The notes under the pieces: generated by a model
The model's database searches: none
What the model was told of the DNA's origin: nothing
The model's input: only the letters and a program-made list of their open reading frames with translations
Source: a virus
IMG/VR virus record: IMGVR_UViG_3300025913_000001
Span: 1-64,000 of that record
Length of the DNA: 64,000 bases
Reading direction: 5' to 3' (one strand)
Part shown: positions 5,637 to 59,614 of the stretch, one piece after another
Layout: every line of letters starts with the position of its first letter
Numbering within the stretch: position 1 is the first letter of the stretch
Translations under genes and position numbers: made by a program

Positions 5637-6023
5637 TTAACTGATAGTTTCTCTTTCTTCATATTCTTTGTATTTATCGAGGTATTTCTTAAACTCTTTA
5701 TCGTGTGTGTCGCTCAGGTTATCGTACATGGTTAAGCCGTATATAACGGTGCTATGGTCACGGTGTCCTATCATTACACCTATCTGCTTTAACGTTAGTC
5801 GTGTTCGGTATTTAAGCTCGTGGCAAACAATAAAACGTATCATCACTAATTCCTGTTTCCTACTTAATGATTTAATCTGCCATGTTTCAACATCAAAAGC
5901 CTTTGCTATGCCGTTGAATATCTTGTCTGCAATATCAGGCTCATCAAGTTTGTACTCTTTGAGGAAACGCCTCTTGGGTAAGATGCTCAATCCTGCGTAT
6001 ATCTGCGGTTCTAAGAGCATCAT
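5637..6023 (-). CDS. DnaA domain IV-like origin-binding protein
   Basis: Residues about 48-100 match DnaA domain IV: the helices SRKQELVMIRFIVCHEL, LTLKQIGVMIG and the signature GHRDHSTVIYGL (86-97), close to the DnaA box-binding G-x-R-D-H-S-T-V. The AAA+ domain is absent, so it could bind DnaA boxes without ATP-dependent oligomerisation. In phages such stand-alone domains may recruit or block host initiation. It overlaps the downstream frame's organisation tightly (ATGATG start region at 6018-6023). Confidence 0.8.
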   Translation of the reverse strand: MMLLEPQIYAGLSILPKRRFLKEYKLDEPDIADKIFNGIAKAFDVETWQIKSLSRKQELVMIRFIVCHELKYRTRLTLKQIGVMIGHRDHSTVIYGLTMYDNLSDTHDKEFKKYLDKYKEYEERETIS

Positions 6024-11932: not shown

Positions 11933-12754
11933 TTACCATTTATAAATTCCACCACGTTGTATAAACATTTCTCTATCGAGGCTTATTTGTTCAATACAGT
12001 GGCTAAAATCGTTATCAATTAAACTGTCTGAATAGGTATGTTTACCCGCACTGTTTTCAAATAGTCTGCCTTGCGGGTCAATTAGCAAATAACTACCCGT
12101 CATTGCTTCGTTACTTTCGGGGACTAAGCAATCATGAAATCCGTGGTGCATGACAAACGTTGTAAATTGTTGCTGAGTGACCTTTATTTCATCAAACTGT
12201 TTGTCGTTTTGTTCTTCAATTCTTAGAGCCTGAAAAACTTTCCACCTATCAGGATTGGCGAATGTTATAAAGTCGTTCATATCTTCCCCCCAATTATAGG
12301 CATTAACCACAGTATTGATTTTAAGCTTATAGCCGAACTTTTTAATTTGGCTGACTAATGCCATGTAGTTAATTGCTTTTTTATGCTTACGCCCTATTAA
12401 AGCGTTAGTATCGGGGTTTAAACTGTCGATTGAAACGCCTATCCAATTTAGATATCCTTTCATCTTTTTTAACCATTCATCAGTAATAAAACTGCCATTG
12501 GTTATAATGCTTGTTGTCATACCTAATGAATGAGCATAAATTATGCAAGCATCTAAATCTTTGTATAGCATAGGTTCGCCACCCGCAAAAGTTATTTTTT
12601 GTACGCCAGATAAAAATAGTTTTCGTATGCAAGTTTTAGCATCGTAAATATTTATTGTTTTTACGTGCATATCGTCAAAAGTAGCATAACAGAATTTACA
12701 CTTCATGTTACACGGCTTCACTATGTGAAACGATACGGTTTCAAAAGTTTTCAT
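11933..12754 (-). CDS. Viperin-family radical SAM enzyme (ddhNTP synthase)
   Basis: A 273-residue radical SAM protein with the 4Fe-4S motif C15-N-M-K-C19-K-F-C22 and GGEP (58-61). Many blocks match animal viperin as I know it: NGSF (86-89), IGR (120-122), KIN (145-147), EDM (157-159), RWKVFQ (170-175), CLVPESN (209-215) and the C-terminal RGGIYKW (267-273). Viperin removes water from NTPs to give 3'-deoxy-3',4'-didehydro-NTPs that stop RNA chains; prokaryotic members act in anti-phage defence. The membrane-binding N-terminal helix of animals is absent, as in prokaryotic forms. It overlaps the KTSC gene by 14 bases in an early leftward operon. Which NTP is used cannot be read from sequence. 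MoaA and QueE do not share the C-terminal blocks. Confidence 0.92.
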   Translation of the reverse strand: MKTFETVSFHIVKPCNMKCKFCYATFDDMHVKTINIYDAKTCIRKLFLSGVQKITFAGGEPMLYKDLDACIIYAHSLGMTTSIITNGSFITDEWLKKMKGYLNWIGVSIDSLNPDTNALIGRKHKKAINYMALVSQIKKFGYKLKINTVVNAYNWGEDMNDFITFANPDRWKVFQALRIEEQNDKQFDEIKVTQQQFTTFVMHHGFHDCLVPESNEAMTGSYLLIDPQGRLFENSAGKHTYSDSLIDNDFSHCIEQISLDREMFIQRGGIYKW

Positions 12755-13127
12755 CTTCTTTATATTGTTTTTTAGCCGTTTCAGTTTCTTTAACTTTCAT
12801 CCAATTGTATTCATTGGCGACCTCTTTTAAATCAGCCGCTTTAATGCTAAAATCTGTTTTCTCAAACTTCAAACCTTTCAGGTAGCTGTTCACAAATGCC
12901 CCAACACTTGTATCGAACTTTTTAAGGACTTCTAAGCTACTCAAAGCAACATTTGAGTACATGTACCCAACGCCGGATTTAAATTGAATATACAGCCTTA
13001 AACTGACTTCATCGTAGGCGAAGTAATCAACGTTGCTGCTATCCCTTTTTTCAATAATAAAACTGGTTAACTCTTTCGGTGCGGACAGCAATACGCCGTC
13101 AAGCACTATTAGGAATGTTTGGTTCAT
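12741..13127 (-). CDS. KTSC-domain protein
   Basis: Residues about 30-92 fit the KTSC fold: a strand with SSNVDYFAYDEVSLRLYIQFKSG, then VGYMYSNVALSSLEVLKKF, and DTSVGAFVNSYLKG (normally A-x-S-V-G-x-F-x-N-x-x-I-K). KTSC domains are small and common in phages and sometimes follow lysyl-tRNA synthetase; function is unknown. A 35-residue charged tail ends EDENF. The gene overlaps viperin by 14 bases, so they are probably made together. Confidence 0.7.
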   Translation of the reverse strand: MNQTFLIVLDGVLLSAPKELTSFIIEKRDSSNVDYFAYDEVSLRLYIQFKSGVGYMYSNVALSSLEVLKKFDTSVGAFVNSYLKGLKFEKTDFSIKAADLKEVANEYNWMKVKETETAKKQYKEDENF

Positions 13128-14224: not shown

Positions 14225-15379
14225 TTATAGAACCTCTTTGGCTTCGCCCTTTACAAGCGTATAAAAAGTATCAGCCTGTATACTTTTACCGTCTACTTTA
14301 AAGCCTTTAACGTCGATTACATTCCAATTACCTAAATTATCTCTTTCCCATTCTGATATAACGATAAAAGAACCTAAAGCCGCTTTAGCTTTACCGCCTG
14401 CGTTTAAACATGCCGAAATACAATACTCGCCTGTTGTAGCAGAGTTAGCACCGTAGCCTGTTGTAGCAGAGTTAGCACGGTTGCCTGTTGTAGCAGAGTT
14501 AGCATACTCGCCTGTTGTAGCAGAGTTAGCACCGTAGCCTGTTGTAGCAGAGTTAGCACCGTAGCCTGTTGTAGCAGAGTTAGCATACTCGCCTGTTGTA
14601 GCAGAGTTAGCATACTCGCCTGTTGTAGCAGAGTTAGCACGGTAGCCTGTTGTAGCAGAGTTAGCACGGTTGCCTGTTGTAGCAGAGTTAGCATACTCGC
14701 CTGTTGTAGCAGAGTTAGCACGGTAGCCTGTTGTAGCAGAGTTAGCATACTCGCCTGTTGTAGCAGAGTTAGCACGGTCGCCTGTTGTAGCAGAGTTAGC
14801 ACGGTTGCCTGTTGTAGCAGAGTTAGCATACTCGCCTGTTGTAGCAGAGTTAGCACGGTTGCCTGTTGTAGCAGAGTTAGCATGGTTGCCTGTTGTAGCA
14901 GAGTTAGCATACTCGCCTGTTGTAGCAGAGTTAGCACCGTAGCCTGTTGTAGCAGAGTTAGCACCGTAGCCTGTTGTAGCAGAGTTAGCACCGTAGCCTG
15001 TTGTAGCACTCGATATTTCAGAGGCATTAGTCTTTTCAAAAATGAATTTAACCGCTCCTTTGATTAAACTACTCAAATTTAACTCTAAGCCAATTTTGAT
15101 TTTAGAGGATGCTATTTTGCTATCTTCATTATGGCGGTCAATTTTGCCTGAACTTTCGGTATTAAAATACCGATTACCGTTTGTTGGTGGGTAATAATTA
15201 AAGATATCTAACGGATTTTCACAAGCATGAAAACCAGTTTCGCAAGCTTTTGCGTCTTTTTCTTCATACTCTTTGCCGGGTTCATATTGGAAGGATCGAC
15301 ATTTAATATCTTTATCTGTCCCCTTAAACGTGTTTACAGTTTCTTCTTTAGGTTGTTTGCTCTTAGTTTCTTTTTTCAT
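14225..15379 (-). CDS. DUF7666-type protein with 22 nonapeptide repeats
   Basis: The N-terminal part (ACETGFHACENPLDIFNYY) matches a family seen in many phages of Bacteroidota and others. Residues 124-321 are 22 copies of SATTGxxAN in which only the two x positions vary (YG, EY, NR, YR, DR, NH). A period of nine with small residues and Gly suggests a beta-solenoid. The C-terminal piece (CISACLNAGGKAKAALGSFIVISEWE) resembles the cap in relatives with fewer repeats. Function unknown. The constant part is nearly identical at DNA level, which points to recent expansion by slippage or recombination, so copy number is probably unstable. Confidence 0.75.
   Translation of the reverse strand: MKKETKSKQPKEETVNTFKGTDKDIKCRSFQYEPGKEYEEKDAKACETGFHACENPLDIFNYYPPTNGNRYFNTESSGKIDRHNEDSKIASSKIKIGLELNLSSLIKGAVKFIFEKTNASEISSATTGYGANSATTGYGANSATTGYGANSATTGEYANSATTGNHANSATTGNRANSATTGEYANSATTGNRANSATTGDRANSATTGEYANSATTGYRANSATTGEYANSATTGNRANSATTGYRANSATTGEYANSATTGEYANSATTGYGANSATTGYGANSATTGEYANSATTGNRANSATTGYGANSATTGEYCISACLNAGGKAKAALGSFIVISEWERDNLGNWNVIDVKGFKVDGKSIQADTFYTLVKGEAKEVL
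14417..15010 (-). repeat. 27-bp tandem repeat array, 22 units
   Basis: Each unit encodes SATTGxxAN; only the six bases for the two x codons change. First x codons are TAC, GAG, AAC or GAC; second are GGT, TAT, CGT or CAT. Because 27 is a multiple of three, other frames also stay open across the array. Confidence 0.95.
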
Positions 15380-26484: not shown

Positions 26485-26615
26485 TGACAAATAAAGTAGA
26501 TACTGAAAAGCATTTAGCAAATATAAAACGTATTCAAAAAGAGTTAGCACTCCAACACGCTAAAGATAAAGAGGCCGATTATGTTAGCAAAATGAATAAA
26601 CGCAAAAACAAATGA
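26484..26615 (+). CDS. Small helical protein (43 aa)
   Basis: MTNKVDTEKHLANIKRIQKE and onward, a single charged helix by appearance. Overlaps both neighbours by one and four bases. Function unknown. Confidence 0.5.
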   Translation: MTNKVDTEKHLANIKRIQKELALQHAKDKEADYVSKMNKRKNK

Positions 26616-27373
26616 TAGAACTCAACAAGATATATTTCATGAATTGTTTGGATGGCATGGAGTTAATAGATGACGAAATTATTGATTTGATATGCTGTGA
26701 TTTGCCTTATGGAACAACAAATAATGATTGGGATGTAGTAATTCCTTTTGCACCACTTTGGAAGCACTATGAACGCATTATAAAACCTCGAGGCATTATT
26801 GTTCTAACAGCTGCGCAACCGTTCGCTACGGACTTAATTATGAGTAATAGGAAATTGTTTAAGTATGATCTGATTTGGTATAAACCTTTAGGGACTGGCT
26901 TTTTAAACGCTAAGAAGCAACCCATGCGAAATCACGAATATATTTTAGTGTTCTACAAAAATCACGGCACATACAATCCGCAAATGGGCGTAGGTAAACG
27001 AAAGTATGGGATGCGAAAGAATGATAGGAACGGCGGATGCTATAACGATTTTAATAATAACAGAATTGAGAAGTTTGATGATAAGGGTTTAAGGTATCCA
27101 CAATCTGTAATTGATATAACCAATGGCGACCGAACTAAAGAAAATGACCACTCAACACAAAAGCCAATTGATTTTATCAGGTATTTAATAAAAACATACT
27201 CTAATGAAGGCGATTTGGTATTAGACAACTGCATGGGCAGTGGAACTACGGCTGCAGCCTGCATTATGGAAAATAGAAACTTTATAGGCTTTGAAAATAA
27301 GTTAAAATATTATGAGCAAAGTTTAAAGAGGCTTGAATTGTTAAACTCTAAACCACAACTATTCGCATGCTAA
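26612..27373 (+). CDS. DNA N4/N6-methyltransferase (beta order)
   Basis: Catalytic motif IV DLPYGTTNNDWD (30-41) precedes the SAM motif LVLDNCMGSGTTAAA (about 203-217), the beta-class order. DLPY in place of DPPY is known among such enzymes. HSTQKPIDFIRYLI before the SAM motif is typical of phage Dam-like and restriction-site methylases. Likely protects phage DNA from host restriction. No partner nuclease is adjacent. Target sequence cannot be told. Confidence 0.85.
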   Translation: MIELNKIYFMNCLDGMELIDDEIIDLICCDLPYGTTNNDWDVVIPFAPLWKHYERIIKPRGIIVLTAAQPFATDLIMSNRKLFKYDLIWYKPLGTGFLNAKKQPMRNHEYILVFYKNHGTYNPQMGVGKRKYGMRKNDRNGGCYNDFNNNRIEKFDDKGLRYPQSVIDITNGDRTKENDHSTQKPIDFIRYLIKTYSNEGDLVLDNCMGSGTTAAACIMENRNFIGFENKLKYYEQSLKRLELLNSKPQLFAC

Positions 27374-27678
27374 CCGCCGACCCATTCAACTCACGCATGG
27401 AAGCCTTTCTGGAAAGGATACAAGAGGACAGACCTGCGAAGATACCACCGTTGTCGGAAGCAGACCTGAAACGCTTCATAGACTACGTTGACTTGCGATT
27501 CGGTTATGATGTGGATACAGCCACAAGCACAGTTCGCAAACGTAAGCCAGTTTTAGGCTTTCAGAACGATTTATTTATGTACGCTGAACAATGTGTAGGG
27601 GAATATGAGATAAAGGCTCATAGGGGCTATAAAGAAGCGTGGCGTAATGGGATATGCGTGGCGATAAAAACAATTTAA
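27367..27678 (+). CDS. Hypothetical protein (103 aa)
   Basis: Soluble; contains KIPPLSEADLKRFIDYVDLRFGYDVDTATSTVRKRKP. Overlaps the methyltransferase stop by 7 bases. The first Met is kept; a second at residue 13 is possible. Not recognised. Confidence 0.6.
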   Translation: MLTADPFNSRMEAFLERIQEDRPAKIPPLSEADLKRFIDYVDLRFGYDVDTATSTVRKRKPVLGFQNDLFMYAEQCVGEYEIKAHRGYKEAWRNGICVAIKTI

Positions 27679-27688
27679 AAATAAAAAT

Positions 27689-27967
27689 ATGGAAACAACA
27701 TTTAAAGTTTGGGAAACATCTGCAATTAACTTAAGTAATTGGCAAGTATATGTTCATTGTGAATTTATGCTAAATGGCAAAATAAAAAGATTAACTAAGT
27801 CATTAGAAAGCGGGGGTGTATTTAGAAAAACAGGTAATATAAACCGTGATAGGGTTGAAGAAACGTTTTGGGTTGAAAAACATGAATTATCAGAAATAAA
27901 ACCTTGGATAGAAAGCGATAAGATAGATATACTTGAAGATGCAAAATCTATGCTAAACGAGGTGTAA
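27689..27967 (+). CDS. Hypothetical protein (92 aa)
   Basis: Beta-rich start (METTFKVWETSAINLSNWQV) and an acidic helical end. AAAAATAAAAAT leader with no clear ribosome site. Not recognised. Confidence 0.55.
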   Translation: METTFKVWETSAINLSNWQVYVHCEFMLNGKIKRLTKSLESGGVFRKTGNINRDRVEETFWVEKHELSEIKPWIESDKIDILEDAKSMLNEV

Positions 27968-27975
27968 AAATAAAA

Positions 27976-28008
27976 TTTGCTTTTGTCATAAATTGTTGTG
28001 TAATTTTA
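27976..28008 (+). promoter_or_regulatory. Promoter of the 82-aa gene
   Basis: TTTG (27976-27979), 21 bases, TAATTTTA (28001-28008; one mismatch to TAnnTTTG). ATG 28022 follows 13 bases later. Confidence 0.5.
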
Positions 28009-28021
28009 TAAAAAAAATAAA

Positions 28022-28270
28022 ATGGCAAAGAAAGTAGTCATACAAACAGAAGAAATTGAACTAATTGGTTCTGATGAAATCATACCCGACAAGCACGTTA
28101 TATCCGATGGCGATATTGAAAACTATCCCGAACTTACTGAACAGGGAGTAAAAAGCGGTGATGGGGTTGAATACGATTCGCTATATGTAAATAAATCACT
28201 AACTGCAGATGGGCAATCTGTAACACAGATACCTTGGCCCATAAACGTTTCGGCAAAAGCAATTAATTAA
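28022..28270 (+). CDS. Small acidic protein (82 aa)
   Basis: MAKKVVIQTEEIELIGSDEI, acidic throughout, ending PWPINVSAKAIN. It lies between its own promoter and terminator, so it is a one-gene unit. Unknown; could be a decoration or anti-host protein. Confidence 0.55.
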   Translation: MAKKVVIQTEEIELIGSDEIIPDKHVISDGDIENYPELTEQGVKSGDGVEYDSLYVNKSLTADGQSVTQIPWPINVSAKAIN

Positions 28271-28278
28271 CTGTTCGT

Positions 28279-28306
28279 CCCCCTTATCAAATTGGTAAGG
28301 GGGTTT
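28279..28306 (+). terminator. Intrinsic terminator
   Basis: CCCCCTTA (28279-28286) pairs with TAAGGGGG (28296-28303), followed by TTTATAATTTT. Confidence 0.7.
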
Positions 28307-28320
28307 ATAATTTTAAGACA

Positions 28321-28479
28321 ATGGCAAAAGTTAAACACATAGGATTTAAGGGCGCTCAGAAAAAAGTGGAAAGTGAAGGTTATTCAAAAAAAGTTGCCGG
28401 AGCAATCATAGCTAATGCAAGTCGTAAAGCCAGTCCAGCGGCAAAAAAAGTTAATAGTCACTTAAAAAAAGTAAAATGA
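28321..28479 (+). CDS. Small basic protein (52 aa)
   Basis: MAKVKHIGFKGAQKKVESEG... rich in Lys, Ala and Ser, with the AGAIIANASRKASPAAKK pattern seen in small phage proteins of unknown role. It overlaps the next gene by 4 bases. Likely binds nucleic acid, judging only by charge. Confidence 0.6.
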   Translation: MAKVKHIGFKGAQKKVESEGYSKKVAGAIIANASRKASPAAKKVNSHLKKVK

Positions 28480-28859
28480 CCATTAGCCAGAACTCAAATT
28501 ATGTATTGGAGCATCCGTACTTAAAAGCGGCTGTTAACTCATTCTTATCTGGCGACCACAAACAACTCAAATTTATCCTCGATTCCTTACAAGAGGATAT
28601 GTATCATAAAATGTTACCGCTATGCGCCAAAGCATACAAGGCTAACAAGAAAGAAAACTATCCGCAGGTAGAGCAAGCAATCCTCGAAGTATCGCCACCC
28701 GATAGACTAAACATCCAATTACCAATTCCGCTACCAACTATCGAATGTAAGATAGTCCCCATGATAAAGCATAAAAAAAGCAGAACTGTTGTAAACGCAA
28801 AGGGACAGCTTGAATTTGACTTTGACGAAAAAAGGCAACTCTCTCGAATTGCCAATTAA
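28476..28859 (+). CDS. Hypothetical protein (127 aa)
   Basis: Helical N-terminal half (HPYLKAAVNSFLSGDHKQLKFILDSL) and a C-terminal basic/acidic tail (KKSRTVVNAKGQLEFDFDEKRQL). Could be an adaptor. Not recognised. Confidence 0.55.
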   Translation: MTISQNSNYVLEHPYLKAAVNSFLSGDHKQLKFILDSLQEDMYHKMLPLCAKAYKANKKENYPQVEQAILEVSPPDRLNIQLPIPLPTIECKIVPMIKHKKSRTVVNAKGQLEFDFDEKRQLSRIAN

Positions 28860-28884
28860 ATAATTTCAATAAGATACCACTAAA

Positions 28885-29154
28885 TTAAGCTACAACCAAA
28901 GTGTTTAACTGTGCGCCGGTTTGTGCAGTATAAATTGTTGCTGTTTTCCATTGATTGTCTACATGATATTGGATGTAAAGAAAACCAGCAGGAACAGGAC
29001 CACCAGGATATGAAGCAGGAACGCCAACAGCGTCACCATAATCAACTATAGTTGAAGTCATACGGTAACGTGCTAATGATGGTGATTGAGCGGTGTACTG
29101 AGTAGGTGTAGCCGCAGTGCTACCTACTTGGGTAATAAGAATTGAAAGTGCCAT
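28885..29154 (-). CDS. Lone leftward gene in the right arm (89 aa)
   Basis: MALSILITQVGSTAATPTQY... a Thr/Ala/Tyr-rich beta-type protein like small virion proteins near 58.9 and 63.5 kb. No rightward frame competes here, and a -7 match (TACATTTG on the minus strand, near 29197-29204) lies upstream. Reading against all neighbours is unusual. Moderately sure that it is real. Confidence 0.5.
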   Translation of the reverse strand: MALSILITQVGSTAATPTQYTAQSPSLARYRMTSTIVDYGDAVGVPASYPGGPVPAGFLYIQYHVDNQWKTATIYTAQTGAQLNTLVVA

Positions 29155-29253
29155 TTTGCTTTAATTTGCTTTTTATGAGATAAATTTGTTAATTAGTTCA
29201 AATGTAAAAAAACAAACATTTGGTTTTTAATGATATAGTTTTTAGATTTACAT

Positions 29254-29355
29254 CAGCGATACGATAAAATATGAACATAGAAAACACTAAAAAATTTCCC
29301 GCACCTATAAAATGTTCATTAAGTATCGCTGCTCAATCTTCATTTTGGTGCGGGA
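29254..29355 (+). promoter_or_regulatory. Structured element with interleaved stems (pseudoknot-like)
   Basis: CAGCGATAC (29254-29262) is complementary to GTATCGCTG (29323-29331), and TCCCGCACC (29297-29305) to GGTGCGGGA (29347-29355). The order a-b-a'-b' makes a pseudoknot or loop-loop contact. AAAATG/CATTTT (29309-29314, 29341-29346) extends the second stem after a 3-base bulge. It ends 14 bases before ATG 29369 in a gene-free stretch. Confidence 0.6.
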
Positions 29356-29368
29356 TTAATTATTTGGC

Positions 29369-29575
29369 ATGAGCATATTTTCACTATTTAAGAAAAAAGT
29401 ACGTGAGCCGTATAAAAAAGTTGACCTAACTGAAAGTGATTTTATTAAGCGTCAGGTTATGTTTGTCAAACGAATAAGGTTTGAGAACTCATTGTATGAA
29501 TTTTCACAAAGCAATATTGTCGCTATCAATCAAATGAAGATAGAGGCTATGGAAGGGTTCTTTGGATTATGTTAA
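29369..29575 (+). CDS. Hypothetical protein (68 aa), first gene after the structured element
   Basis: MSIFSLFKKKVREPYKKVDL... basic, amphipathic start that could touch membrane, helical end. It overlaps the glycosyltransferase start by 7 bases and leads the glycosylation cassette. Function unknown. Confidence 0.55.
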   Translation: MSIFSLFKKKVREPYKKVDLTESDFIKRQVMFVKRIRFENSLYEFSQSNIVAINQMKIEAMEGFFGLC

Positions 29576-30333
29576 TCGTAATGGCTGTTCACGATACAGA
29601 ACAAAATGATAGATCTAAGTATACCAAAGAGTGTTTAAATAGTTTTTTAGATACTGTTGATTTAGACAAACATCGACTTTTTATTTCAGATAATGGAAGC
29701 TGTTCCGAAACGCAAGAGATATATACTGATTTTTTAAACAAAGCAAAGTATAATAAAAACATCACTTTTAGTTTTAATGGCATCAATCTTGGAACAGCTA
29801 ATGCCATTAATTTAGGTATAAAAACAAGGCAGTTCAAGGAGCATGTTTGTAAGGCAGATAACGATGTTTTTTGGCACAATAGTAGTTGGGCAGACCAAAT
29901 TGAATACGTATTTCGGGACTACGAAAACGTAGGGGTATGCGGATTAAAAAGAGAAGATGTTTGGCAAAATACGGAACATGAAAATCCATTGTACCGTACA
30001 TTTATGGATGGGCGTATTGAAGTATGCGATGATATAATAGGAACTTGTACAGGATTAAACTACAGACTTCTTGATAAAGTAGGATATTTTAATCAGCCAA
30101 GTGGAAAATATGGCGGTGACGATGTACTTATGTCAGCCCGTTCTATATCTTCTGGTTTTAAAAACTGTTTCTTACCTCATATTAAGATTACTCATTTAGA
30201 TGATGGACAAAACCCATATTGTGATTGGAAGAAAAAAGAAGCAGGATTTTACCTTCAAGAAATTGGTATGATGGTAGAAATGTATAAGAATGGACGATTA
30301 AACACATATTACGACGGAGGATTTAATGACTAA
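29569..30333 (+). CDS. Family 2-like glycosyltransferase (GT-A)
   Basis: 254 residues: MLIVMAVHDTEQNDR start, NGINLGTANAINLGIK (about residues 72-87) as the nucleotide-sugar loop, KADNDVFW (about 96-103) with the metal-binding D-x-D, and a later GGDDVLMSAR as the acceptor-side acidic block. Probably transfers a sugar from an NDP donor to a phage or host acceptor. First enzyme of a four-gene overlapping cassette. Confidence 0.75.
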   Translation: MLIVMAVHDTEQNDRSKYTKECLNSFLDTVDLDKHRLFISDNGSCSETQEIYTDFLNKAKYNKNITFSFNGINLGTANAINLGIKTRQFKEHVCKADNDVFWHNSSWADQIEYVFRDYENVGVCGLKREDVWQNTEHENPLYRTFMDGRIEVCDDIIGTCTGLNYRLLDKVGYFNQPSGKYGGDDVLMSARSISSGFKNCFLPHIKITHLDDGQNPYCDWKKKEAGFYLQEIGMMVEMYKNGRLNTYYDGGFND

Positions 30334-30964
30334 ATTAATTACGGTATGTAGCGACCAAACAGCGATTGGAATACAACAGCTTTTTAAATCACTCAATAAA
30401 TTTGAGTGGGATGCAGATGTTTTGGTTACAGAGTGGAAAGGCTTTGGAACTAAACTATTAACCGTTTATCAATATCTTAAAGACCATCCCGAAGTAGATT
30501 CATTCTTTTTTTGTGATGCTTACGATGTAGTGGTTTTGTCTACAATGGAAGAGGCTATGTCAAAATTAAATACAAATGTAATTACCTTTTCTGGTGAAAA
30601 AAACTGTTGGCCTGACAAGGCGATGGAAGCGTATTACGATACTCCAGGAAAAACAGAATGGTGTTTTCTGAATAGTGGATTATATTTTGCTCCAAGCGAA
30701 TTATTTATTTCTTTGTTTGACTACAACATGCCCACATTAGACAGCGATGACCAGCTATGGGCAACTACACAACTGATATTTAATCCTAATAGTAAAATAG
30801 TTTTGGATGTTAACTGCAAGGTTTTTCAAAGTTATTCATTCATATCAAATGATGACTTTGGATATGAAAACAACCGTCTACAAAATTTAAAAACAGGAGA
30901 ACAACCAGTATTTGCTCATGGAAATGGACGTACAGATTTATCTAAGGTTTACGATTTATTATGA
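30326..30964 (+). CDS. PLOD-type glycosyltransferase
   Basis: 212 residues with FFFCDAYDVVVL (about 60-71, D-x-x-D), FSGEKNCWPD, FLNSGLYFA, LDSDDQLW and the end PVFAHGNGR. These blocks are those of the glycosyltransferase domain in procollagen lysyl hydroxylase and related phage proteins. It overlaps both neighbouring genes, so it acts in the same modification pathway. Confidence 0.75.
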   Translation: MTKLITVCSDQTAIGIQQLFKSLNKFEWDADVLVTEWKGFGTKLLTVYQYLKDHPEVDSFFFCDAYDVVVLSTMEEAMSKLNTNVITFSGEKNCWPDKAMEAYYDTPGKTEWCFLNSGLYFAPSELFISLFDYNMPTLDSDDQLWATTQLIFNPNSKIVLDVNCKVFQSYSFISNDDFGYENNRLQNLKTGEQPVFAHGNGRTDLSKVYDLL

Positions 30965-31665
30965 GTATAGACCTATATAAACAACATTGGATTGACAAAC
31001 CCACAAGGCATGAAGCAGTAAATACTATGTTTGCTGCTAATGTCAATGAAAACCAATTGCTAAAGTCTCATCGTGATTTTGTAGAACAAAATGCCTTCGG
31101 GTTTGGAGAACGTAGTTTTCACTGGCTTTGGAAAATTATTATAGATGAAATGCCGAAATCATTTTCATTTTTAGAAATAGGAGTTTTTAGGGGGCAAATT
31201 CTTTCATTAGTTGAATTATTAGCCAAAGAAAGTGGAAAAGAAGCTAAAAGATATGGTGTATCTCCGTTAGACAGTTCTGATGGGCATTGGGATAGTGACT
31301 ACGCTAAAGATATAGAAATTATTCACGATCGGTTTGGTTTGGCTAAAGACTATACCATTTATCATGGATTAAGCATCAACTCAGAAATAATAAAGCAAGC
31401 AAAATCTACAGCGCCATACGATATTGTTTACCTTGACGGGGGGCATACCTACGAAGTCGTTACAAGCGATTTAAAGCACTATCCTGATATGGTTAAGGTT
31501 GGTGGCTTATTTATAGTCGACGATAGCTGTAATAACATGAAAATGCCGTGGGGTTTTTTTCAAGGCATTGAGGACGTAACGAAAGCAACATTAGAGTGGG
31601 AAAACAGTCAGTTTGAATTTCAGTTTAATGTTGTTCATAATCGAGTTTATAAAAGAGTAGCATGA
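30961..31665 (+). CDS. Class I SAM methyltransferase
   Basis: 234 residues: SFLEIGVFRGQIL (SAM motif I, about 67-79), PYDIVYLDGGHTYEVV (motif IV region, about 153-168) and LFIVDDSCNN. This is the methyltransferase-24 / cephalosporin-hydroxylase-like type often found with glycosyltransferases. It probably methylates a sugar put on by the flanking enzymes. Confidence 0.7.
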   Translation: MSIDLYKQHWIDKPTRHEAVNTMFAANVNENQLLKSHRDFVEQNAFGFGERSFHWLWKIIIDEMPKSFSFLEIGVFRGQILSLVELLAKESGKEAKRYGVSPLDSSDGHWDSDYAKDIEIIHDRFGLAKDYTIYHGLSINSEIIKQAKSTAPYDIVYLDGGHTYEVVTSDLKHYPDMVKVGGLFIVDDSCNNMKMPWGFFQGIEDVTKATLEWENSQFEFQFNVVHNRVYKRVA

Positions 31666-32630
31666 AGAAAATCATATACATGACCCAATGGGATGACGAC
31701 GGAACTTATTTCTATCGATTGGCACCCCTTACATTTATTAAACACGAAAATATTACAATTGAAAGGATACCCTATCATGGCAATATTACGTGGTCTACCC
31801 TATTGGGATATGATACCTTAATTTTAGAACGCCCATCAGGTCAGCATGACTTAAACCTTATTAAATTGGCTAAACAATGCGGACTAAAGATTATTACCGA
31901 TTGGGATGATGATGTTTTACATATTGATGAATATAACCCAATGTACGCGCATTATGAAACTGCAAAATCAATTGTTATTGAGTGTTTGCTGTTATCCGAT
32001 GATGTTTGGGTATCTACTGTTGGATTAAAGAAGTCATTTGGCTTTTATAATGGCAATATACGGGTTATACCGAACGCTCATAACGATTACTTGTTTCCTG
32101 TAGCCAATAAAAAGCAATTCAATATAGAGAGTAAAAAAGCTATTTGGAGAGGCGGTCAAAGCCATGAAGCAGATGTGTATGGGGTTGCAGATAGCTTAGT
32201 TAAAACTATCAATGACAACACCGATTGGATGTTTCAGTTTGTTGGTGCAAGATTTATTTATATGGAGCAGAGATGTGGAAACAACTATCAACCTGTTTCC
32301 ATGATGCCGTTAATGCAGTATTTCGGGTATTTGTATAAGGAGAACCCCAATATCGTATTTCACCCTTTATCTAATACTAAATTTAACGAGAGTAAAAGCA
32401 ATATCAGTTTTATTGAGGCTACGTATAGCGGGGGTGTGTTTTTTGGAAACACAACCTTACAAGAATTTTCTGGAGTAGGTATAATGCCGTTTGACTATAT
32501 ATCAGAATATGTGGAAAAAGATAGGATATTGGCATTGCAAAAAGCAAATGAAATAGGGTGGAAACACATAAAAGATAATTTGCTATTATCAAACATTAAT
32601 CAAAAACGCATAGAAAGGCTATTGGCATGA
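31662..32630 (+). CDS. GT-B glycosyltransferase
   Basis: 322 residues: an N-terminal Rossmann half (LILERPSGQHDLNLIKLAKQCGLKIITDWDDD), VIPNAHNDYLF at the domain junction, then AIWRGGQSHEAD and SFIEATYSGGVFFG, the E-x(7)-G/A region of GT4-like enzymes. Last enzyme of the cassette, overlapping the GroES-like gene. Confidence 0.7.
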   Translation: MKKIIYMTQWDDDGTYFYRLAPLTFIKHENITIERIPYHGNITWSTLLGYDTLILERPSGQHDLNLIKLAKQCGLKIITDWDDDVLHIDEYNPMYAHYETAKSIVIECLLLSDDVWVSTVGLKKSFGFYNGNIRVIPNAHNDYLFPVANKKQFNIESKKAIWRGGQSHEADVYGVADSLVKTINDNTDWMFQFVGARFIYMEQRCGNNYQPVSMMPLMQYFGYLYKENPNIVFHPLSNTKFNESKSNISFIEATYSGGVFFGNTTLQEFSGVGIMPFDYISEYVEKDRILALQKANEIGWKHIKDNLLLSNINQKRIERLLA

Positions 32631-33217
32631 AGTTAATCGGAAATGTATTAGGGGTAGAATTTGACAAGGCACATAATAAAGTGTTATCAGTTGGACTAAA
32701 TGGTCTTGATATTATAAGGGCAGATTTATGGATAGCAAGAGAGGACGATGGATTTCAGGGTTCTCAATTTTCTGAAAATACCAATTATCTCGAAACACTA
32801 CCTCAGATATGCACAGTTAAGCACCCAAGTGTCAATCACCCATACAAAGAGGGTGACAAGCTATTTGTACATTACATGGCTAAAGAGTGTGCCGAACGTG
32901 TTGATGACTACGAAGTCATTGATGCGGACTTTATTTTATTTCAAATAATGCCCGATGAAACGTTTGACATGGTTGATCGAACTTACTTAGGAGAACAAGT
33001 GTACACCGAAGAGGAAATAACTCCATCAGGCATCATTGTAAGCGATAGGAAGAAAGACGGGATGAAAGTAGTGATAACACACGTTCCACGCAGGGCTGCT
33101 GTTAAAATAGGTCAAACAGTCATTACCATTGACGATAAGAATTACGAGATAAACTATAAAGGTAAACGCTATATCAAATTAGTAGAACACGAAATTGTAG
33201 GTGTAGTAATCAATTAA
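32627..33217 (+). CDS. GroES-like co-chaperonin
   Basis: The C-terminal half (TPSGIIVSDRKKDG...AVKIGQTVITIDDKNYEINYKGKRYIKLVEHEIVGVV) follows the GroES order: S-G-I-I-V, a glycine-rich mobile-loop region, K-x-G-x-x-V, and the last strand Y-x-x-V-x-E-x-E-I-x-G-V. The N-terminal half repeats a similar strand pattern and may be a second, divergent barrel, making it longer than GroES (196 against about 97). Phages such as T4 use a GroES analogue to fold capsid protein; the place just before the virion genes fits that. Confidence 0.55.
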   Translation: MKLIGNVLGVEFDKAHNKVLSVGLNGLDIIRADLWIAREDDGFQGSQFSENTNYLETLPQICTVKHPSVNHPYKEGDKLFVHYMAKECAERVDDYEVIDADFILFQIMPDETFDMVDRTYLGEQVYTEEEITPSGIIVSDRKKDGMKVVITHVPRRAAVKIGQTVITIDDKNYEINYKGKRYIKLVEHEIVGVVIN

Positions 33218-33221
33218 ACTT

Positions 33222-34004
33222 ATGCCAGCGAAGAAGGGGTTTTGGATTAAGAAAACTGGGTTGATTAAAGTAGATACTTCTTTAACTCCCAAAGAAAAAG
33301 CAACGTTTAGAAAGGTTGAAGTAGACAAGCCAATTCAACGCCTTAAAACAGAAGGTAAAAGTAGCAAGTATCTGAAAGGTGTTATTATTCCCGAACTTAA
33401 AAAACGTGCCGATCATTTTCGCTCTATTATAACCGTTTATGAACGTGTTATAGCCCGTTTACAAGCAAGCACCGATGTATTGGTAAAACAAATTATGCAA
33501 GATTACCAAAATAAACTTGTAGTAGAACGAAAGAAAATAGTAAAAAAAAACAGATTAAAAATAAGAATAGAGGTAGAGAGGCGTTTAAAATTACGGGTGG
33601 TTAATATGACAAAGAACAACGTTGCTGTTTATAATGGCATCGTCGGTCACATGATAACAGAAAATTTTTGCTTTGAACATCAGATTAGTCCACGTGTATT
33701 GGGTTTGTTAACTTTCATATCTTTGCATACAACCGTACACAGAAACGATTTAACTTTATATAATCCCAATATCAAAGGCAATACTTTAACGAAGGTTATT
33801 AATGCCTTATTTGAAAAAAACTACATTCAAAGGGAAAAATATAGCATGTTCATTTCGTTGGAAGGAAAGGTATTAATTGAAAAATATAAAAAGGCTTTTG
33901 AAAAACAGAAACGAACTATAAACAGAACTTTAGATGGAAAAGTCCCAGTCAAACGAAGGATCACCAATAAGACGCTTGGTATCGGCAATCAACCAAGTGC
34001 TTGA
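33222..34004 (+). CDS. Basic protein with C-terminal winged helix
   Basis: 260 residues; first half basic and helical (KKIVKKNRLKIRIEVERRLKLRV), second half an HTH/wing (VLGLLTFISLHTTVHRNDLTLYNPNIKGNTLTKVINALFEKNYIQREKYSMFISLEGKVLIEKY), MarR-like in pattern. Directly upstream of terminase genes, so a DNA-recognition role in packaging or late regulation is possible. Confidence 0.55.
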   Translation: MPAKKGFWIKKTGLIKVDTSLTPKEKATFRKVEVDKPIQRLKTEGKSSKYLKGVIIPELKKRADHFRSIITVYERVIARLQASTDVLVKQIMQDYQNKLVVERKKIVKKNRLKIRIEVERRLKLRVVNMTKNNVAVYNGIVGHMITENFCFEHQISPRVLGLLTFISLHTTVHRNDLTLYNPNIKGNTLTKVINALFEKNYIQREKYSMFISLEGKVLIEKYKKAFEKQKRTINRTLDGKVPVKRRITNKTLGIGNQPSA

Positions 34005-34284
34005 ACAATATGCTGAAAACTTAGAGCTATTGGCCGTTGGTAAAGAACCTGTCATATCGATAGATTATAAGACTTTGGATATGGCTATGAAATTTATTGA
34101 TAAAACAGGTAACTTAGAGCAATTCGAGAAGTTTGCTAATGGTCAACCGTTGGGTAAGCTAAAAGTATTGCCAATAAGTAAAGAAGTTGACGAACCGGAA
34201 GTAGAAGAAATTAATTCTATTGGCAATACGCTCGAAGAAAGAATGAAGGTTGTCAAGAAAAAACTGAATGGAGTTAATAAATAA
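33934..34284 (+). CDS. Possible terminase small subunit
   Basis: 116 residues, helical, with a charged tail; overlaps the previous gene by 71 bases and terL by 17. Position, size and helical content suit a small terminase, but I see no diagnostic helix-turn-helix. Alternative: an adaptor protein. Confidence 0.4.
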   Translation: MEKSQSNEGSPIRRLVSAINQVLEQYAENLELLAVGKEPVISIDYKTLDMAMKFIDKTGNLEQFEKFANGQPLGKLKVLPISKEVDEPEVEEINSIGNTLEERMKVVKKKLNGVNK

Positions 34285-36379
34285 AGATTGGAAAGTTGGT
34301 GAGCCTTTAGAATATGAACTACAGGGCATAGTTTACAAAACACCGCCAGTTCCAAAACTATCTACAATCCGAAATAGCAAAAAGAAACCCAAAGACCAAA
34401 TTTGGGAAAGAGATTTATCCTACTTACAGTGGGATTGGAATACTGACCCATCCAAAGGTCGCTTATGGGTAGACACTGCAAGTCCAGAACAACGAGCATG
34501 GTTTGATGCTGAACTGGAAAGAATATTGGTAGGTAGTTGGATCATGATTAACGGACAACCCACGTTCTTTAATGCCGATTGTTACTTTTTTCACCAAAAT
34601 TTTGTTCTTCAAGAAAATATCTATCCCACTTATAAAGACACTTCTCTCGAATACTTTTATTTTTCAGAAGATTGTGAAAAAGACCCAGTTTTTGTTGGCG
34701 AGGTAGGGATTAAAGGTCGTCGTGTTGGCTTATCGTCAATGTCGGCATCTAAGAAACTACGCATACTACTTACAGAAGATAACACCTTGCAGGGTATCGT
34801 ATCTAAAACAGGGGTGGATGCACAGGAAATGTTCTTTTTCGTTAAGAACGCAATGGAAAATCTATTGCCGTTTTTAATGCCTGATTTGAACAAGGTTACT
34901 GAAAGTGAAATACACGTAGCCAAGCCATCCAAAAAGATTACTGCAAAGAATACTAAAGCATCTGCCGACAAAGGTAAGAACAACCGTTTGGATTGGCGTG
35001 ATACCTCTGAAAATGCTTATGACCAGTCAAGGCAACGGCACGTTACACTCGATGAAGCAGGTAAATGGGCTAAAGTAAGCGTACTAATATGCTTGTCTAA
35101 GATTACTGAAACCTTAGTGGTTGGCGCATCAGTTGTTGGTTTTATATCCATATTCAGTACGGTTAATAAAGGCGATAAGGGCGGAGATAACTTTAGGGTT
35201 ATTTGGGACGGTAGCGACCACGTGAACGGTAAAAAGGATATGTTCGGCAGAACACGTACCAAACTTAAACGTTTCTTTTTAGCAGGTTATAGGGGTTTAT
35301 TGGGATATGTAGGGAAGTATGGTGAATCCATAGTCGATACACCAACGCCAGAGCAAACAGAGTTTCTAAAAACCTATATCGATCCATCCACAGGAAAGTT
35401 AGCCTGTCCTAATCCATATATTGGTGCGAAAGAATACTTGATGGAGACACGCAAGATGTTAGCCAACGAACCTGAATTGCTTGCAGAAGAAATCCGTAAG
35501 TATCCTTTTGAATGGAAAGAAGTATTTAAGGGCGCTAATAACAAGTGTAACTTTGATTTAGATGATCTGAATGAACAAATAAAACGAGTTGAAGATGAGT
35601 TATTGCGTGAAGGTAAAAGGGAAAACGGTCGTCGTGGTAAATTCAATGTTCGCTCCAATGGAGAGAAGTATTTTGAGGATAGCCCAAGTGGGATGTGGTA
35701 CATCTTAGAGTTTCCTGAAAGAACAAATAAAACAGTCATCAAAGGAAGTATCAAATGTCCAGATAACGGCGCTTTTGGTTGTGCGGGACTTGACCCATTT
35801 GCTAATGCCAAACACGCTATTGAAAAAGGCTCCGATGCTTGTTTGATGATACACAAACGGTATGATGCTTTAGACCCCGATGGTTCAGGATATCCCTGTG
35901 CTATGTTCTTAGGCAGACCAAGTATTAAAGAAGAATTTCACGAACAAATCTATTGGGGATTAGAGTATTTTGGCATACGTATGCTTGCTGAACGCACACC
36001 TACCGATTGGGAAGATTACGCTATTAAGAATAAATTGGCTTCACCTTTAGATACACCCGGTAAATTACAAGGCTATTTAATTACTCGTAAACGGTATAAC
36101 AATTCTGAGATATATGGCATCCCACCACAAGATAAAGAAGCCAGAGAACAGCACCTAACAGAAATGATTGAGTATGCCAAATTTAATATGCGCAAAATAA
36201 GGTTTATCCGGTTGTTGAGAGATATGTTAGAATTTGATATCGAAGAAAGGACAGACTATGATGCGTGTATGGCATGGGGATATGCTTTGATGGGATTAAA
36301 GGAATATCAGGCTATTCAAAAATCTGAAATAAAGGTGAGGGAGTTTATGCGGTTGAAAAAAAGCAAGCAATATCATTGA
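34268..36379 (+). CDS. terL: Terminase large subunit
   Basis: 703 residues. Walker A-like GIKGRRVGLSS (147-157) and Walker B HVTLDEAGK (258-266) form the packaging ATPase in the divergent form known from Bacteroidota podoviruses. The nuclease half has GCAGLDPFAN with the first catalytic Asp and later acidic positions (AERTPTDWEDYA, ERTDYDACMAWGYAL). It should cut and pump DNA into the procapsid through the portal encoded next. Confidence 0.85.
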   Translation: MELINKDWKVGEPLEYELQGIVYKTPPVPKLSTIRNSKKKPKDQIWERDLSYLQWDWNTDPSKGRLWVDTASPEQRAWFDAELERILVGSWIMINGQPTFFNADCYFFHQNFVLQENIYPTYKDTSLEYFYFSEDCEKDPVFVGEVGIKGRRVGLSSMSASKKLRILLTEDNTLQGIVSKTGVDAQEMFFFVKNAMENLLPFLMPDLNKVTESEIHVAKPSKKITAKNTKASADKGKNNRLDWRDTSENAYDQSRQRHVTLDEAGKWAKVSVLICLSKITETLVVGASVVGFISIFSTVNKGDKGGDNFRVIWDGSDHVNGKKDMFGRTRTKLKRFFLAGYRGLLGYVGKYGESIVDTPTPEQTEFLKTYIDPSTGKLACPNPYIGAKEYLMETRKMLANEPELLAEEIRKYPFEWKEVFKGANNKCNFDLDDLNEQIKRVEDELLREGKRENGRRGKFNVRSNGEKYFEDSPSGMWYILEFPERTNKTVIKGSIKCPDNGAFGCAGLDPFANAKHAIEKGSDACLMIHKRYDALDPDGSGYPCAMFLGRPSIKEEFHEQIYWGLEYFGIRMLAERTPTDWEDYAIKNKLASPLDTPGKLQGYLITRKRYNNSEIYGIPPQDKEAREQHLTEMIEYAKFNMRKIRFIRLLRDMLEFDIEERTDYDACMAWGYALMGLKEYQAIQKSEIKVREFMRLKKSKQYH

Positions 36380-36425: not shown

Positions 36426-38894
36426 ATGGCTTACAATGGCATAAGTTTACTTCCTAATATTTTAAGCAACGATACTGAAAAGGATAAAGCTTCTTTTGGG
36501 TTGCAACTTATGCAGGCAGCATACACTAATTGGAACACCGGATATAACGGTGAAACACGGTCAGGTAGGAAAGCCAGATTTGATTATAATCGATCATTTG
36601 CGATGGGAAAACAACCCATGCAAGAGTATAAAGATATCCTCGACTTAGACGGCGAAAATTCAGTCGTTCAGTTAATTTATGAACCACTACCCATTGCTAT
36701 TCCCTTTGTTAACCGCTTAAAAGACCGTTATCTGCAACGTCAGGAAAAGATAAGTTGTAACTCTATAGACCCATTTACTACCGAGAAAAAGAAAAAAGCC
36801 AAAGATAATGCTGTATTCAAGTTACAGAACAAAGAAAAGATACAAGCATTACAGAATGCTGCTGGTGCGCAGATTGAAGAATTTGGTGATGATGACCCGC
36901 AGACGGTCAGAGAAATTGAGGTAGAGTACGGTTATAATTACAAAGAGCGTGAAGAAGTTATCATGCAGGAACTGATTAATATCGTTCTGTATGATAACGA
37001 TTGGTCTGGTGTAATCAAAGAACGCATATTAGACGATTTGATTAACTGCGGTTATGCAGGTGTCAAAGTTTATTTGGATGGCAATGGACGCATTAAAATA
37101 CGCTTTATACGACCCGAAAACTTTATTACATCCTACAGCGAGTGGAATGATTTTAGAGATTGGGAATATCAAGGCGAGGTCTATTATAAGAAGATAACCG
37201 AAATAAGGTTACAATATGGTAATATCATCAGCGAGGAAGAGCTTTTTAGTTTAGCCCAAAACCATGTTGGCAAATACGGGAATCCAACTGACTTTAGCTT
37301 TGATTGGAACGAAAACTATCGTACTGCTTTGGCACGTCCCTATGACGGATGGCGAGTTGAAGTAGTTGAATTAGAGGTTAAGTCATTGTATAACCTGAAA
37401 TATAAAACGGGTGAAGATAGATTTGGAAAGCAGACTTTAGATAGGATAAATGTTGTTGTTGATAAAGATAAGACCTTGATGTCACAACCATACGATGTTT
37501 CCTATACGGGAGTAATGATAGCCGGAACGGAACACGTATTGGAGTGGGGACTATCAAAGAATATGGTTAAGCCACAGGATAACCTACAAGAGATCATTTC
37601 TTCTTATGTGGTATATATGTATGGCAATCAGCAAATGGTGAATACACCAATGATGCAGACCATGATACCATCAATCAAGAAAATGCAACTTATTGATCTG
37701 AAACAACAAAATATTATTGCCGCAGCAATGCCCGATGGTTATGATGTTGATATCTCTACGATGTCTGATATTGATTTAGGATTGGGAGAAGGCGTATTGA
37801 ACCCGTTTGAACTTTATAAAATTAAAAAGCAAACAGGTATCGGATTTTACAAGAGATTGGAAGATGATGGTAGTGGACAGCGCAGAGAGCCTATTACGGC
37901 TAATAATGTACCATTTAGCGGTAAGTTAGAACAATTGCGTGGTGAGTGGAACTCAGAGTACGATACACTACTTAAAATCACAGGGTCAAACAATTTGGAC
38001 TCAGGTAACATCACCAACCAAGCTGTAAGCCAACAAGTCGTTAAACAAGCTCAACAAACAGGTGAAAGTGCTTCTAATTACATTTACAATAGTTTCTTGA
38101 ATATCATGCAACGTGCCGCTAAGTTGGCGCAATTGCGTGGTTGGGATATCTTAGTATTTGGTAAGAAAGACGGAGTAAAATATTATGATGGATACCGTCA
38201 GGCTTTAGGCACACAAAAGATAGAATACTTGAAGTTAGAGGCAACAGACGACTTCGAGAAAACTAATTTTGACGTTCAAATAAAAACGATTATCGACGAT
38301 CAAGAGCAAATGTTCTTAGAGCAAAATATTGCAGCGGCATTAAGCCAAAAGGAAATTACATTAGCCGATGCTATTGATGTACGTAAGTTAGCTTTGATAG
38401 ACGCTGATTATGCAAGTTATATGCTTGCCGCACGTATTGAGCGCAGGAAACAAGAGCAACAGAAAATTGCCGCTCAAAACTCACAAGATAATACTCAAGC
38501 AGCCATTGCCGCAGCGCAAACTAAGTCACAAGGCGAGATACAATTGGAAACAGTTAGAGCGCAATTGAAGTCAGCAGAACTGGATAAACAGTTTGAACAA
38601 GCAAAAGAGTTGGAGATATTGAAATCTGTAAATAACATCAAGCAAGAAATTGCTAAAGGAGTATTGGCCGAACCGGGCAAATCAATCAAAGACTTGCCGA
38701 AAGAAATATTAGATGGTATAGGTATCGTTGACCAAAGCGAAAATATGATTATGGTGAATGCTATCCATCAGCAACAGGATGCTATGATGGCACAGCAACA
38801 AGCAGCCCAAGCACAAGCCCAACAACAGCAAATGGCACAGCAAGACCCTAATCAACAACCACAACAAGAACAGCCGCAGCCACAAGCAGCATAG
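36426..38894 (+). CDS. Portal protein
   Basis: 822 residues. N-terminal stretch with RFDYNRSFAMGKQPMQEYKDIL, YEPLPIAIPFVNRLKDRYL and LDDLINCGYAGVKVYLDGNGRIKIRFIRPENFI is typical of portals in large Bacteroidota podoviruses. Helical C-terminal half (QQVVKQAQQTGESASNYIYNSFLNIMQRAAKLAQ) fits stem and crown. The last 40 residues are almost only Gln, Ala, Pro and Met. Follows terL and precedes the scaffold and capsid genes. Confidence 0.8.
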   Translation: MAYNGISLLPNILSNDTEKDKASFGLQLMQAAYTNWNTGYNGETRSGRKARFDYNRSFAMGKQPMQEYKDILDLDGENSVVQLIYEPLPIAIPFVNRLKDRYLQRQEKISCNSIDPFTTEKKKKAKDNAVFKLQNKEKIQALQNAAGAQIEEFGDDDPQTVREIEVEYGYNYKEREEVIMQELINIVLYDNDWSGVIKERILDDLINCGYAGVKVYLDGNGRIKIRFIRPENFITSYSEWNDFRDWEYQGEVYYKKITEIRLQYGNIISEEELFSLAQNHVGKYGNPTDFSFDWNENYRTALARPYDGWRVEVVELEVKSLYNLKYKTGEDRFGKQTLDRINVVVDKDKTLMSQPYDVSYTGVMIAGTEHVLEWGLSKNMVKPQDNLQEIISSYVVYMYGNQQMVNTPMMQTMIPSIKKMQLIDLKQQNIIAAAMPDGYDVDISTMSDIDLGLGEGVLNPFELYKIKKQTGIGFYKRLEDDGSGQRREPITANNVPFSGKLEQLRGEWNSEYDTLLKITGSNNLDSGNITNQAVSQQVVKQAQQTGESASNYIYNSFLNIMQRAAKLAQLRGWDILVFGKKDGVKYYDGYRQALGTQKIEYLKLEATDDFEKTNFDVQIKTIIDDQEQMFLEQNIAAALSQKEITLADAIDVRKLALIDADYASYMLAARIERRKQEQQKIAAQNSQDNTQAAIAAAQTKSQGEIQLETVRAQLKSAELDKQFEQAKELEILKSVNNIKQEIAKGVLAEPGKSIKDLPKEILDGIGIVDQSENMIMVNAIHQQQDAMMAQQQAAQAQAQQQQMAQQDPNQQPQQEQPQPQAA

Positions 38895-42022: not shown

Positions 42023-42991
42023 ATGGAAACAGAAGAAAAAAAACCACACTGGACACAGTTAAAGAAGATGCAAGAAGCAAAAGCAGCGGAGGAACAACCT
42101 AAAAAGTTTGTTGTTCCCCAACCAAAGAAAAAAGAAAAATGGGATATTGCAAAGCGATACCAATTTAAACTATCGCAAGTGTACGATGCGGCAAAGCCTC
42201 GTGATGCTGATACCAACGAGATATTGGATAATCCATACCCACCGACATACCTTTGGGTAAATTCAGGTGTGGCTATTAACCCGGAAACAAATGAGGTAGA
42301 GAACTGGCGATATGTATATGGTTATAGTTCTATTTGGGTTAAAGACCAACAAAAGCCAGAGCCATCCAAACAGCAATTGGAAAATCCCAAGAACGACATC
42401 GTGTTTAAAAACGGGTCGCTATTCGTGAATGGCAATAACAAAGCCTTGTTAGAGGCATTAACCGTACAGGATGCTTTTGAGGGTGTAGAAAACCCTATTA
42501 ACAATATGCCGTTCATTTATGGTTTAGTTGATGAGAATAAAAACCGGGAGCGTGTACGTAGCGAAGCAGATATGGCTTACTTAGCTGAGAAATCGGCTCG
42601 TGAGGCAACTTTAGAGCAAATGGTGCCAGTAGCCATGCACTTTGGTATTGACGTAACCGATCCTGACGAAAACGAAGATCGTATCAGGACAGAGTTTATC
42701 CTAAAAGCTAAAGCGATGCCTCGTGAATTTAGCAACCAGTTTACTAATCCTAAAAATGAGTACAAGTACAACATTGTACAGGCTTTGCAATTAGGTATTA
42801 TATCGGCTGATAAGATTCCGGGTAAAATGGTATTGAATGACACAGGTGCAGTTTACTTCGATGTTAAAATTGGCGATGACGTAGCAGACCAATTTGCGTC
42901 ACTGATGATGATAAGAAACGATAAGGCAATTAAGCTTTATAGTCAAATTGAAAACATACTTGCAGGAAGCAATTTCGAGGTAACGCAATAA
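42023..42991 (+). CDS. Head-associated hypothetical protein (322 aa)
   Basis: A Lys/Glu/Gln-rich N-terminus (EEKKPHWTQLKKMQEAKAAEEQPKKF), a central beta part (PPTYLWVNSGVAINPETNEVENWRYVYGYSSIWV) and an acidic helical end. In the position where related phages have head-decoration or connector genes; no specific family recognised. Confidence 0.5.
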   Translation: METEEKKPHWTQLKKMQEAKAAEEQPKKFVVPQPKKKEKWDIAKRYQFKLSQVYDAAKPRDADTNEILDNPYPPTYLWVNSGVAINPETNEVENWRYVYGYSSIWVKDQQKPEPSKQQLENPKNDIVFKNGSLFVNGNNKALLEALTVQDAFEGVENPINNMPFIYGLVDENKNRERVRSEADMAYLAEKSAREATLEQMVPVAMHFGIDVTDPDENEDRIRTEFILKAKAMPREFSNQFTNPKNEYKYNIVQALQLGIISADKIPGKMVLNDTGAVYFDVKIGDDVADQFASLMMIRNDKAIKLYSQIENILAGSNFEVTQ

Positions 42992-43015
42992 TTTTCTTCT
43001 GTGTTTTCTAAATGT

Positions 43016-43047
43016 AAGGGGTTGGTATAAATACTGATCCCTTTTTT
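43016..43047 (+). terminator. Intrinsic terminator
   Basis: AAGGG (43016-43020) pairs with CCCTT (43039-43043), with inner GTAT/ATAC pairs, then TTTT before G. Confidence 0.65.
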
Positions 43048-43049
43048 GC

Positions 43050-43081
43050 TTTAAATAGATATGAGTAAAGCATTATCTTTG
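43050..43081 (+). promoter_or_regulatory. Promoter, probably leaderless, for the connector genes
   Basis: CTTT (43050-43053), 20 bases, TATCTTTG (43074-43081); ATG 43086 is four bases after the box, so the transcript would begin at or next to the start codon, as at 18334. Confidence 0.55.
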
Positions 43082-43085
43082 TTGT

Positions 43086-44617: not shown

Positions 44618-44619
44618 TT

Positions 44620-45402: not shown

Positions 45403-45403
45403 T

Positions 45404-59380: not shown

Positions 59381-59614
59381 ATGGAAACTTGCAAGCAATG
59401 CTCAAAAGAATTTGAGGCATGGGAAGCTGAATTTTATTGCGACAATTGTGATAACGACGGATTAGAAGAACGTTGGTACGATTGGTGCATTGGCGAACCT
59501 GATATGATTACGTGTACTGAATGTAATGGTGATAAGACAATTAAATCTATGGAACGTGGTTTTTGTTCCGAAGATTGCAGAGAGGATTACTTTTATCCCA
59601 ATAACGGTATATGA
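59381..59614 (+). CDS. Cys-rich zinc-binding protein (77 aa)
   Basis: METCKQCSKEFEAWEAEFYCDNC...: CKQC, CDNC, CTEC and a last Cys pair give two zinc sites. The last part (GFCSEDCREDYFY) is like MYM/FCS-type fingers. Start at 59381 since the earlier in-frame ATGs lie in the terminator. It overlaps the helicase gene by 4 bases and may work with it. Confidence 0.6.
   Translation: METCKQCSKEFEAWEAEFYCDNCDNDGLEERWYDWCIGEPDMITCTECNGDKTIKSMERGFCSEDCREDYFYPNNGI

Follow-up and report, generated by a model that had tools for sequence, protein, structure and literature searches.

Viperin genes carried by phages: a phage-specific clade of an enzyme known from bacterial and animal immunity

Outside phages, viperin is known as an antiviral enzyme of bacterial and animal immune systems, and it ranks among the best-known cases of immunity common to both. 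The products of prokaryotic viperins (pVips), namely ddhCTP, ddhGTP and ddhUTP, are reported to act as RNA chain terminators and, in Escherichia coli, to inhibit T7 RNA polymerase (PMC12926258, PMC9642334), and about 15% of bacterial viperins have a CMPK2-like kinase partner (PMC11249213). Here, we describe a viperin gene in the virus record IMGVR_UViG_3300025913_000001, which is 71,951 bp long and of which bases 1-64000 are referred to below as the window. An earlier note on this DNA had read a phage-encoded viperin in it, and this reading is borne out by family models, phylogeny, predicted fold and phage context.

The gene is an intact ORF with an ATG start and encodes a complete viperin (Table 1). 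Its product scores 294 bits (E=8.5e-88) against NF038283, the curated NCBIfam model of prokaryotic viperins with a cut-off of 180 bits, and reaches E=5e-88 against the PADLOC pVip model. In the comparison of viperin and MoaA models that the earlier note had proposed, the protein thus passed the former and failed the latter, since the best MoaA model gives 77.5 bits over residues 11-182, short of its cut-off of 284 bits. MoaA or another radical-SAM enzyme was accordingly rejected on family scores and fold (TM 0.55 to MoaA); these two criteria carry the separation from MoaA, as the trees described below contain no MoaA or QueE outgroup. By family and fold, the ORF encodes a viperin, and its product is presumably a working one, whose catalysis and substrate we infer.

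All the motifs named earlier are present in the translation, including the cysteines C15/C19/C22, GGEP (58-61), KIN (145-147), EDM, RWKVFQ (170-175), CLVPESN and the C-terminal RGGIYKW (267-273). When residue conservation was compared across 77 cellular and 11 phage viperins, C15, C19, C22, GGEP, R122, K145, N147 and R170-K172 proved invariant, as did E213, Y222, P227, R267 and G269. R122 is a residue that we take, from work on mouse viperin and CTP, to contact the triphosphate. At other positions, where cellular viperins are near-invariant, the phage proteins carry residues of their own (N8S, V84I, M224L, F231L and I245L), and these substitutions could mean an altered activity. The AlphaFold model of the window protein, built on an alignment of 60 viperins, has a mean pLDDT of 95.7; of the solved structures, CTP-bound mouse viperin (6q2p; TM 0.93, 1.7 Å) matches it best. 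The structure prediction that had been suggested as a check therefore yields a modelled overall fold matching CTP-bound viperins.

Table 1. Coordinates, within the window, of the viperin gene, its sequence motifs, its immediate neighbours and two phage structural genes
Feature	Position	Strand	Basis or remark
Viperin, phage-clade prokaryotic viperin, predicted ddhNTP synthase, 273 aa	11933..12754	-	NF038283, PADLOC pVip, tree, model
S8 codon, phage-clade change	12731..12733	-	N in 76/77 cellular viperins
C15-x3-C19-x2-C22 codons, radical-SAM 4Fe-4S site	12689..12712	-	Invariant (77 cellular, 11 phage viperins)
GGEP (58-61), radical-SAM SAM-binding motif	12572..12583	-	Invariant
IGR (120-122), R122 presumed triphosphate contact	12389..12397	-	G121 and R122 invariant
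KIN (145-147), presumed NTP contact	12314..12322	-	K145 and N147 invariant
RWK (170-172), presumed triphosphate contact	12239..12247	-	Invariant
RGGIYKW (267-273), C-terminal	11936..11956	-	R267 and G269 invariant
Upstream gene with KTSC domain (PF13619)	12741..13127	-	14-nt overlap with the viperin start
Downstream small ORF, 78 aa	11719..11955	-	Overlaps viperin end
Terminase	34268-36379		Window phage
Portal	36426-38894		Window phage

Both ends of the record are identical over 127 bp, so that a circularly assembled, complete genome is expected on the strength of this end comparison; identical ends of 127-141 bp also occur in the carrier records G001, G002, G003 and G009. Besides terminase and portal, the window record has primase/helicase, Sak4, virion, tail and recombination genes, and bacterial contamination was rejected in view of the identical ends and the phage structural genes. 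Several other features of this genome deserve mention. In the early operon, 5637-6023 encodes a stand-alone DnaA C-terminal DNA-binding domain (PF08299), and the 384-aa product of 14225-15379 includes a tandem array of over 20 repeats, each of 8 residues and of the GYGANSATT type. Directly before the terminase, at 26612-34004, several glycosyltransferases, including one of the PLOD type (PF25342, 30326-30964), cluster with a DNA methyltransferase. The late genes include one for a very large protein of 1787 aa without a Pfam match (53532-58895) and one for a protein of 837 aa with DEAD/ResIII helicase domains (59611-62124), the latter with matches to parts of giant phage proteins (phrog_10691 and phrog_5143).

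The viperin gene belongs to a series of small ORFs that share its strand, which is opposite to that of the late genes. Because it overlaps its upstream gene within this series, expression early in infection is likely, as judged from gene order, and the KTSC gene and the downstream 78-aa ORF are likely to share its transcript. A Bacteroidota-type promoter motif was found five times, against 2.8 expected, and in no case at the viperin gene. The KTSC gene was rejected as a functional partner, for it adjoins the window copy only and is absent beside the other phage copies; an operon of viperin with a kinase or toxin was likewise rejected, no neighbour being conserved beside the phage copies. As to a CMPK2-like kinase, the window viperin is a single-domain protein and its upstream neighbour has no Pfam kinase match.

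Scans of 2.9 million IMG/VR contigs returned, besides one truncated member of the same clade (L015), ten further full-length ones (L002-L007, L012-L014 and L128); as the search is seeded with short peptide patterns, this count is a lower bound. From 84,980 species genomes, 129 relatives were obtained, and among the best 80 of these, on which clade membership was judged, L016 is the sole clade member. It is located on a 28-kb contig that was binned as Chitinophagaceae and bears a terminase and other phage genes, while the other, cellular relatives among these 80 are at most 47% identical. Twelve full-length phage-clade copies are thus available, from the window and eleven more phage records. 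In maximum-likelihood trees, the phage viperins form one clade with support of 100/100, apart from the cellular viperins (11 of the 88 viperins in the first tree, which also had one outgroup, and 12 of 53 in the second), on a long stem of 0.72-0.84 changes per column. The neighbours of this clade are Bacteroidota viperins, with the weakly supported pair L054/L070 as sister; L054 has an ordinary chromosomal setting. The tree that had been called for hence groups the window protein with prokaryotic viperins, in a clade of its own beside Bacteroidota, the sole outgroup being the very long L008. Together, the tree and the bin of L016 suggest Bacteroidota as the probable hosts of the carrier phages; a TerL search of 395 genomes of L016's phylum, run without a positive control, gave no match. 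Among the tail genes of a phage contig of another type (L136:9866-10864) there is a second, only distantly related viperin, with 305 bits against NF038283 and about 31-34% identity to the others, so that phages have probably acquired viperin on more than one occasion.

Viperin is the only gene common to all 12 carrier records. In pairwise comparisons of the phages, viperins are 55-69% identical, whereas terminases mostly share 23-36% identity or differ in type; the related pair G000/G001 (terminases 53% identical) is an exception. Given this gap in identity and the lack of any other shared gene, the carriers appear from their sequences to be mostly unrelated and the viperin gene has probably moved between phages, although different constraint on the two proteins could explain part of the gap. 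The GC content of each viperin gene tracks that of its carrier. In the closest pair, G007/G008, whose viperins are 89% identical, dN is 0.058 and dS 1.08; the resulting dN/dS of about 0.05 indicates purifying selection on viperin and is given for this pair alone, dS being saturated or uncertain in the others. None of 21 records with related terminases, including five near-complete ones of 72-74 kb, has a viperin, in a search whose query did find its matches in seven known carriers. It was TerL that brought up these relatives; Sak4, tried as a marker of sister phages, yielded none. These five relatives conserve the terminase-to-tail module and have almost no shared genes in the left, early arm, which is the place of viperin. 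The gene is accessory cargo of these phages, and it is dispensable in at least one of them, since the copy of L015 (509-889) is broken off after about residue 117 and followed by unrelated sequence. Two carriers also have Ter stress-response genes (TerC, PRTase_3, HAD-like and TerD; L106:8115-11084 in G003 and 42981-47875 in G005), which are 41-77% identical between the two and in G003 lie within 1-5 kb of viperin.

On the evidence of sequence, phages would have acquired the gene, probably once for this clade, from a Bacteroidota-type viperin, may then have retained it as a phage-specific clade and would have passed it among unrelated phages. The enzyme, a radical-SAM protein, is predicted to convert an NTP to the 3'-deoxy-3',4'-didehydro analogue, which terminates RNA chains, and its position in early-type operons suggests that it is probably expressed early in infection. 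What such a product would do depends on the polymerase of the carrier. No T7-type RNA polymerase (PF00940) was detected in 11 viperin-phage records, in a search in which the T7 control was positive, nor were catalytic motifs of multisubunit RNA polymerases found; absences of integrase, polymerase or viperin are judged here by family models and say little for fragment records. The window phage is therefore most likely transcribed by the host RNA polymerase and seems to be dependent on that multisubunit enzyme. The likeliest benefit would be the poisoning of RNA synthesis in competing phages that have their own, more sensitive polymerase. The exclusion of such competitors, one of the two uses that the earlier note had suggested, fits best, and we put at about an even chance that a ddhNTP-making phage on the host polymerase harms rivals bringing their own without harming itself. 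If the RNA polymerase of Bacteroidota is sensitive to ddhNTPs, the carrier would harm itself.

Other roles have to be weighed against this one. A phage-borne defence gene is typically a moron, which here would mean a viperin expressed from a prophage and guarding the host cell against other phages, and an integrase in carrier G008, a weak integrase match in G001 and the separate viperin among the tail genes of L136 are in keeping with it. We nevertheless regard this as unlikely, for the integrase expected of a temperate phage was not found in the window phage, which matches neither the tyrosine integrase (PF00589) nor the large serine recombinase (PF07508) model, and no such gene was found in G002, G003, G004, G005, G009 or G010; moreover, the one clade member among the best 80 of 129 species-genome relatives is on a phage contig, and the window copy stands within a run of early-type small ORFs. 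The early-type position would also suit a takeover of the host, in which ddhNTP slows host transcription at the onset of infection while that of the phage escapes. The earlier note had proposed this as the other use, with a phage polymerase that tolerates the analogue, and the proposal finds no support where neither a T7-type polymerase nor a multisubunit catalytic motif was found: with no phage RNA polymerase detected that could escape, the product would affect the phage as much as its host, and this role appears very unlikely.

Counter-defence is a further candidate, as a nucleotide lacking the 3'-OH might stop the nucleotide-joining enzymes of host defence (CD-NTases, Cas10 and defence reverse transcriptases), which on chemical grounds should need that group. 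The spread over unrelated phages and the early-type position suit such a gene, yet inhibition of CD-NTases by ddhNTPs is not a known effect and we consider the idea quite unlikely; if true, an immune effector would have been turned into an immune antagonist. That the viperin fold has come to make another nucleotide, for instance for the modification of phage nucleic acid, would accord with the clade-specific changes at near-invariant positions and with the long stem (0.72-0.84 changes per column). Such a change of function is, in our estimate, quite improbable too, because the FeS ligands and the conserved R/K/N positions are retained, the predicted fold is close to that of CTP-bound viperin and no conserved partner gene is there to use the product. 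Finally, the broken copy of L015 could hint at an artefact, be it a viral bin contaminated by bacterial DNA or a passenger gene in decay; identical genome ends, structural genes, 12 full-length copies and a dN/dS of about 0.05 make this extremely improbable.

The earlier note knew of no described phage-borne case, and our searches agree with it. Among 50,697 phage records, tblastn detected no viperin and only distant radical-SAM proteins of at most 31% identity; in BFVD, a collection of viral protein structures, the closest entry (TM 0.67 at 15% identity) is no viperin; and a full-text literature search, which covered neither the two principal papers on viperin nor the prophage counts of DefenseFinder (PMC9090908), returned no report of a phage-encoded viperin. 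The protein is a viperin by every test made, but its clade is specialised to phages and its setting is new. The existence of a phage-only clade over otherwise unrelated phages suggests that phages took a cellular antiviral effector for their own use, and the purpose is probably to fight competing phages. It thereby becomes testable how a phage withstands the RNA chain terminator that it would make, which polymerases are sensitive and whether nucleotide chemistry is a means of competition between phages. For studies of nucleotide selectivity, the clade further supplies enzymes that differ naturally at near-invariant positions.

Compared with MoaA (GTP 3',8-cyclase), the window viperin has the radical-SAM core in common, and its match to the MoaA model stops at residue 182. 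With animal viperin (RSAD2) and the fungal viperin-like enzymes, it shares the fold (TM 0.93 to the mouse protein) and the catalytic motifs, but unlike animal viperin it has no N-terminal extension, and identity is 34% over the aligned region. It is closest to the Bacteroidota branch of pVips, with which it has family models, motifs and length in common; its best identity to a clearly cellular copy is 47%. It has no kinase fusion, whereas many Bacteroidota copies are in ORFs of about 480 aa, and it differs from cellular pVips in its phage-only clade, its own residues at near-invariant positions and its early-type phage operon. As in P2/P4-type elements (PMC9122126), a phage bears an anti-phage gene as variable cargo; unlike those elements, the viperin carriers are mostly without a recognised integrase, and they hold the gene in early-type operons and as a clade found in phages only.
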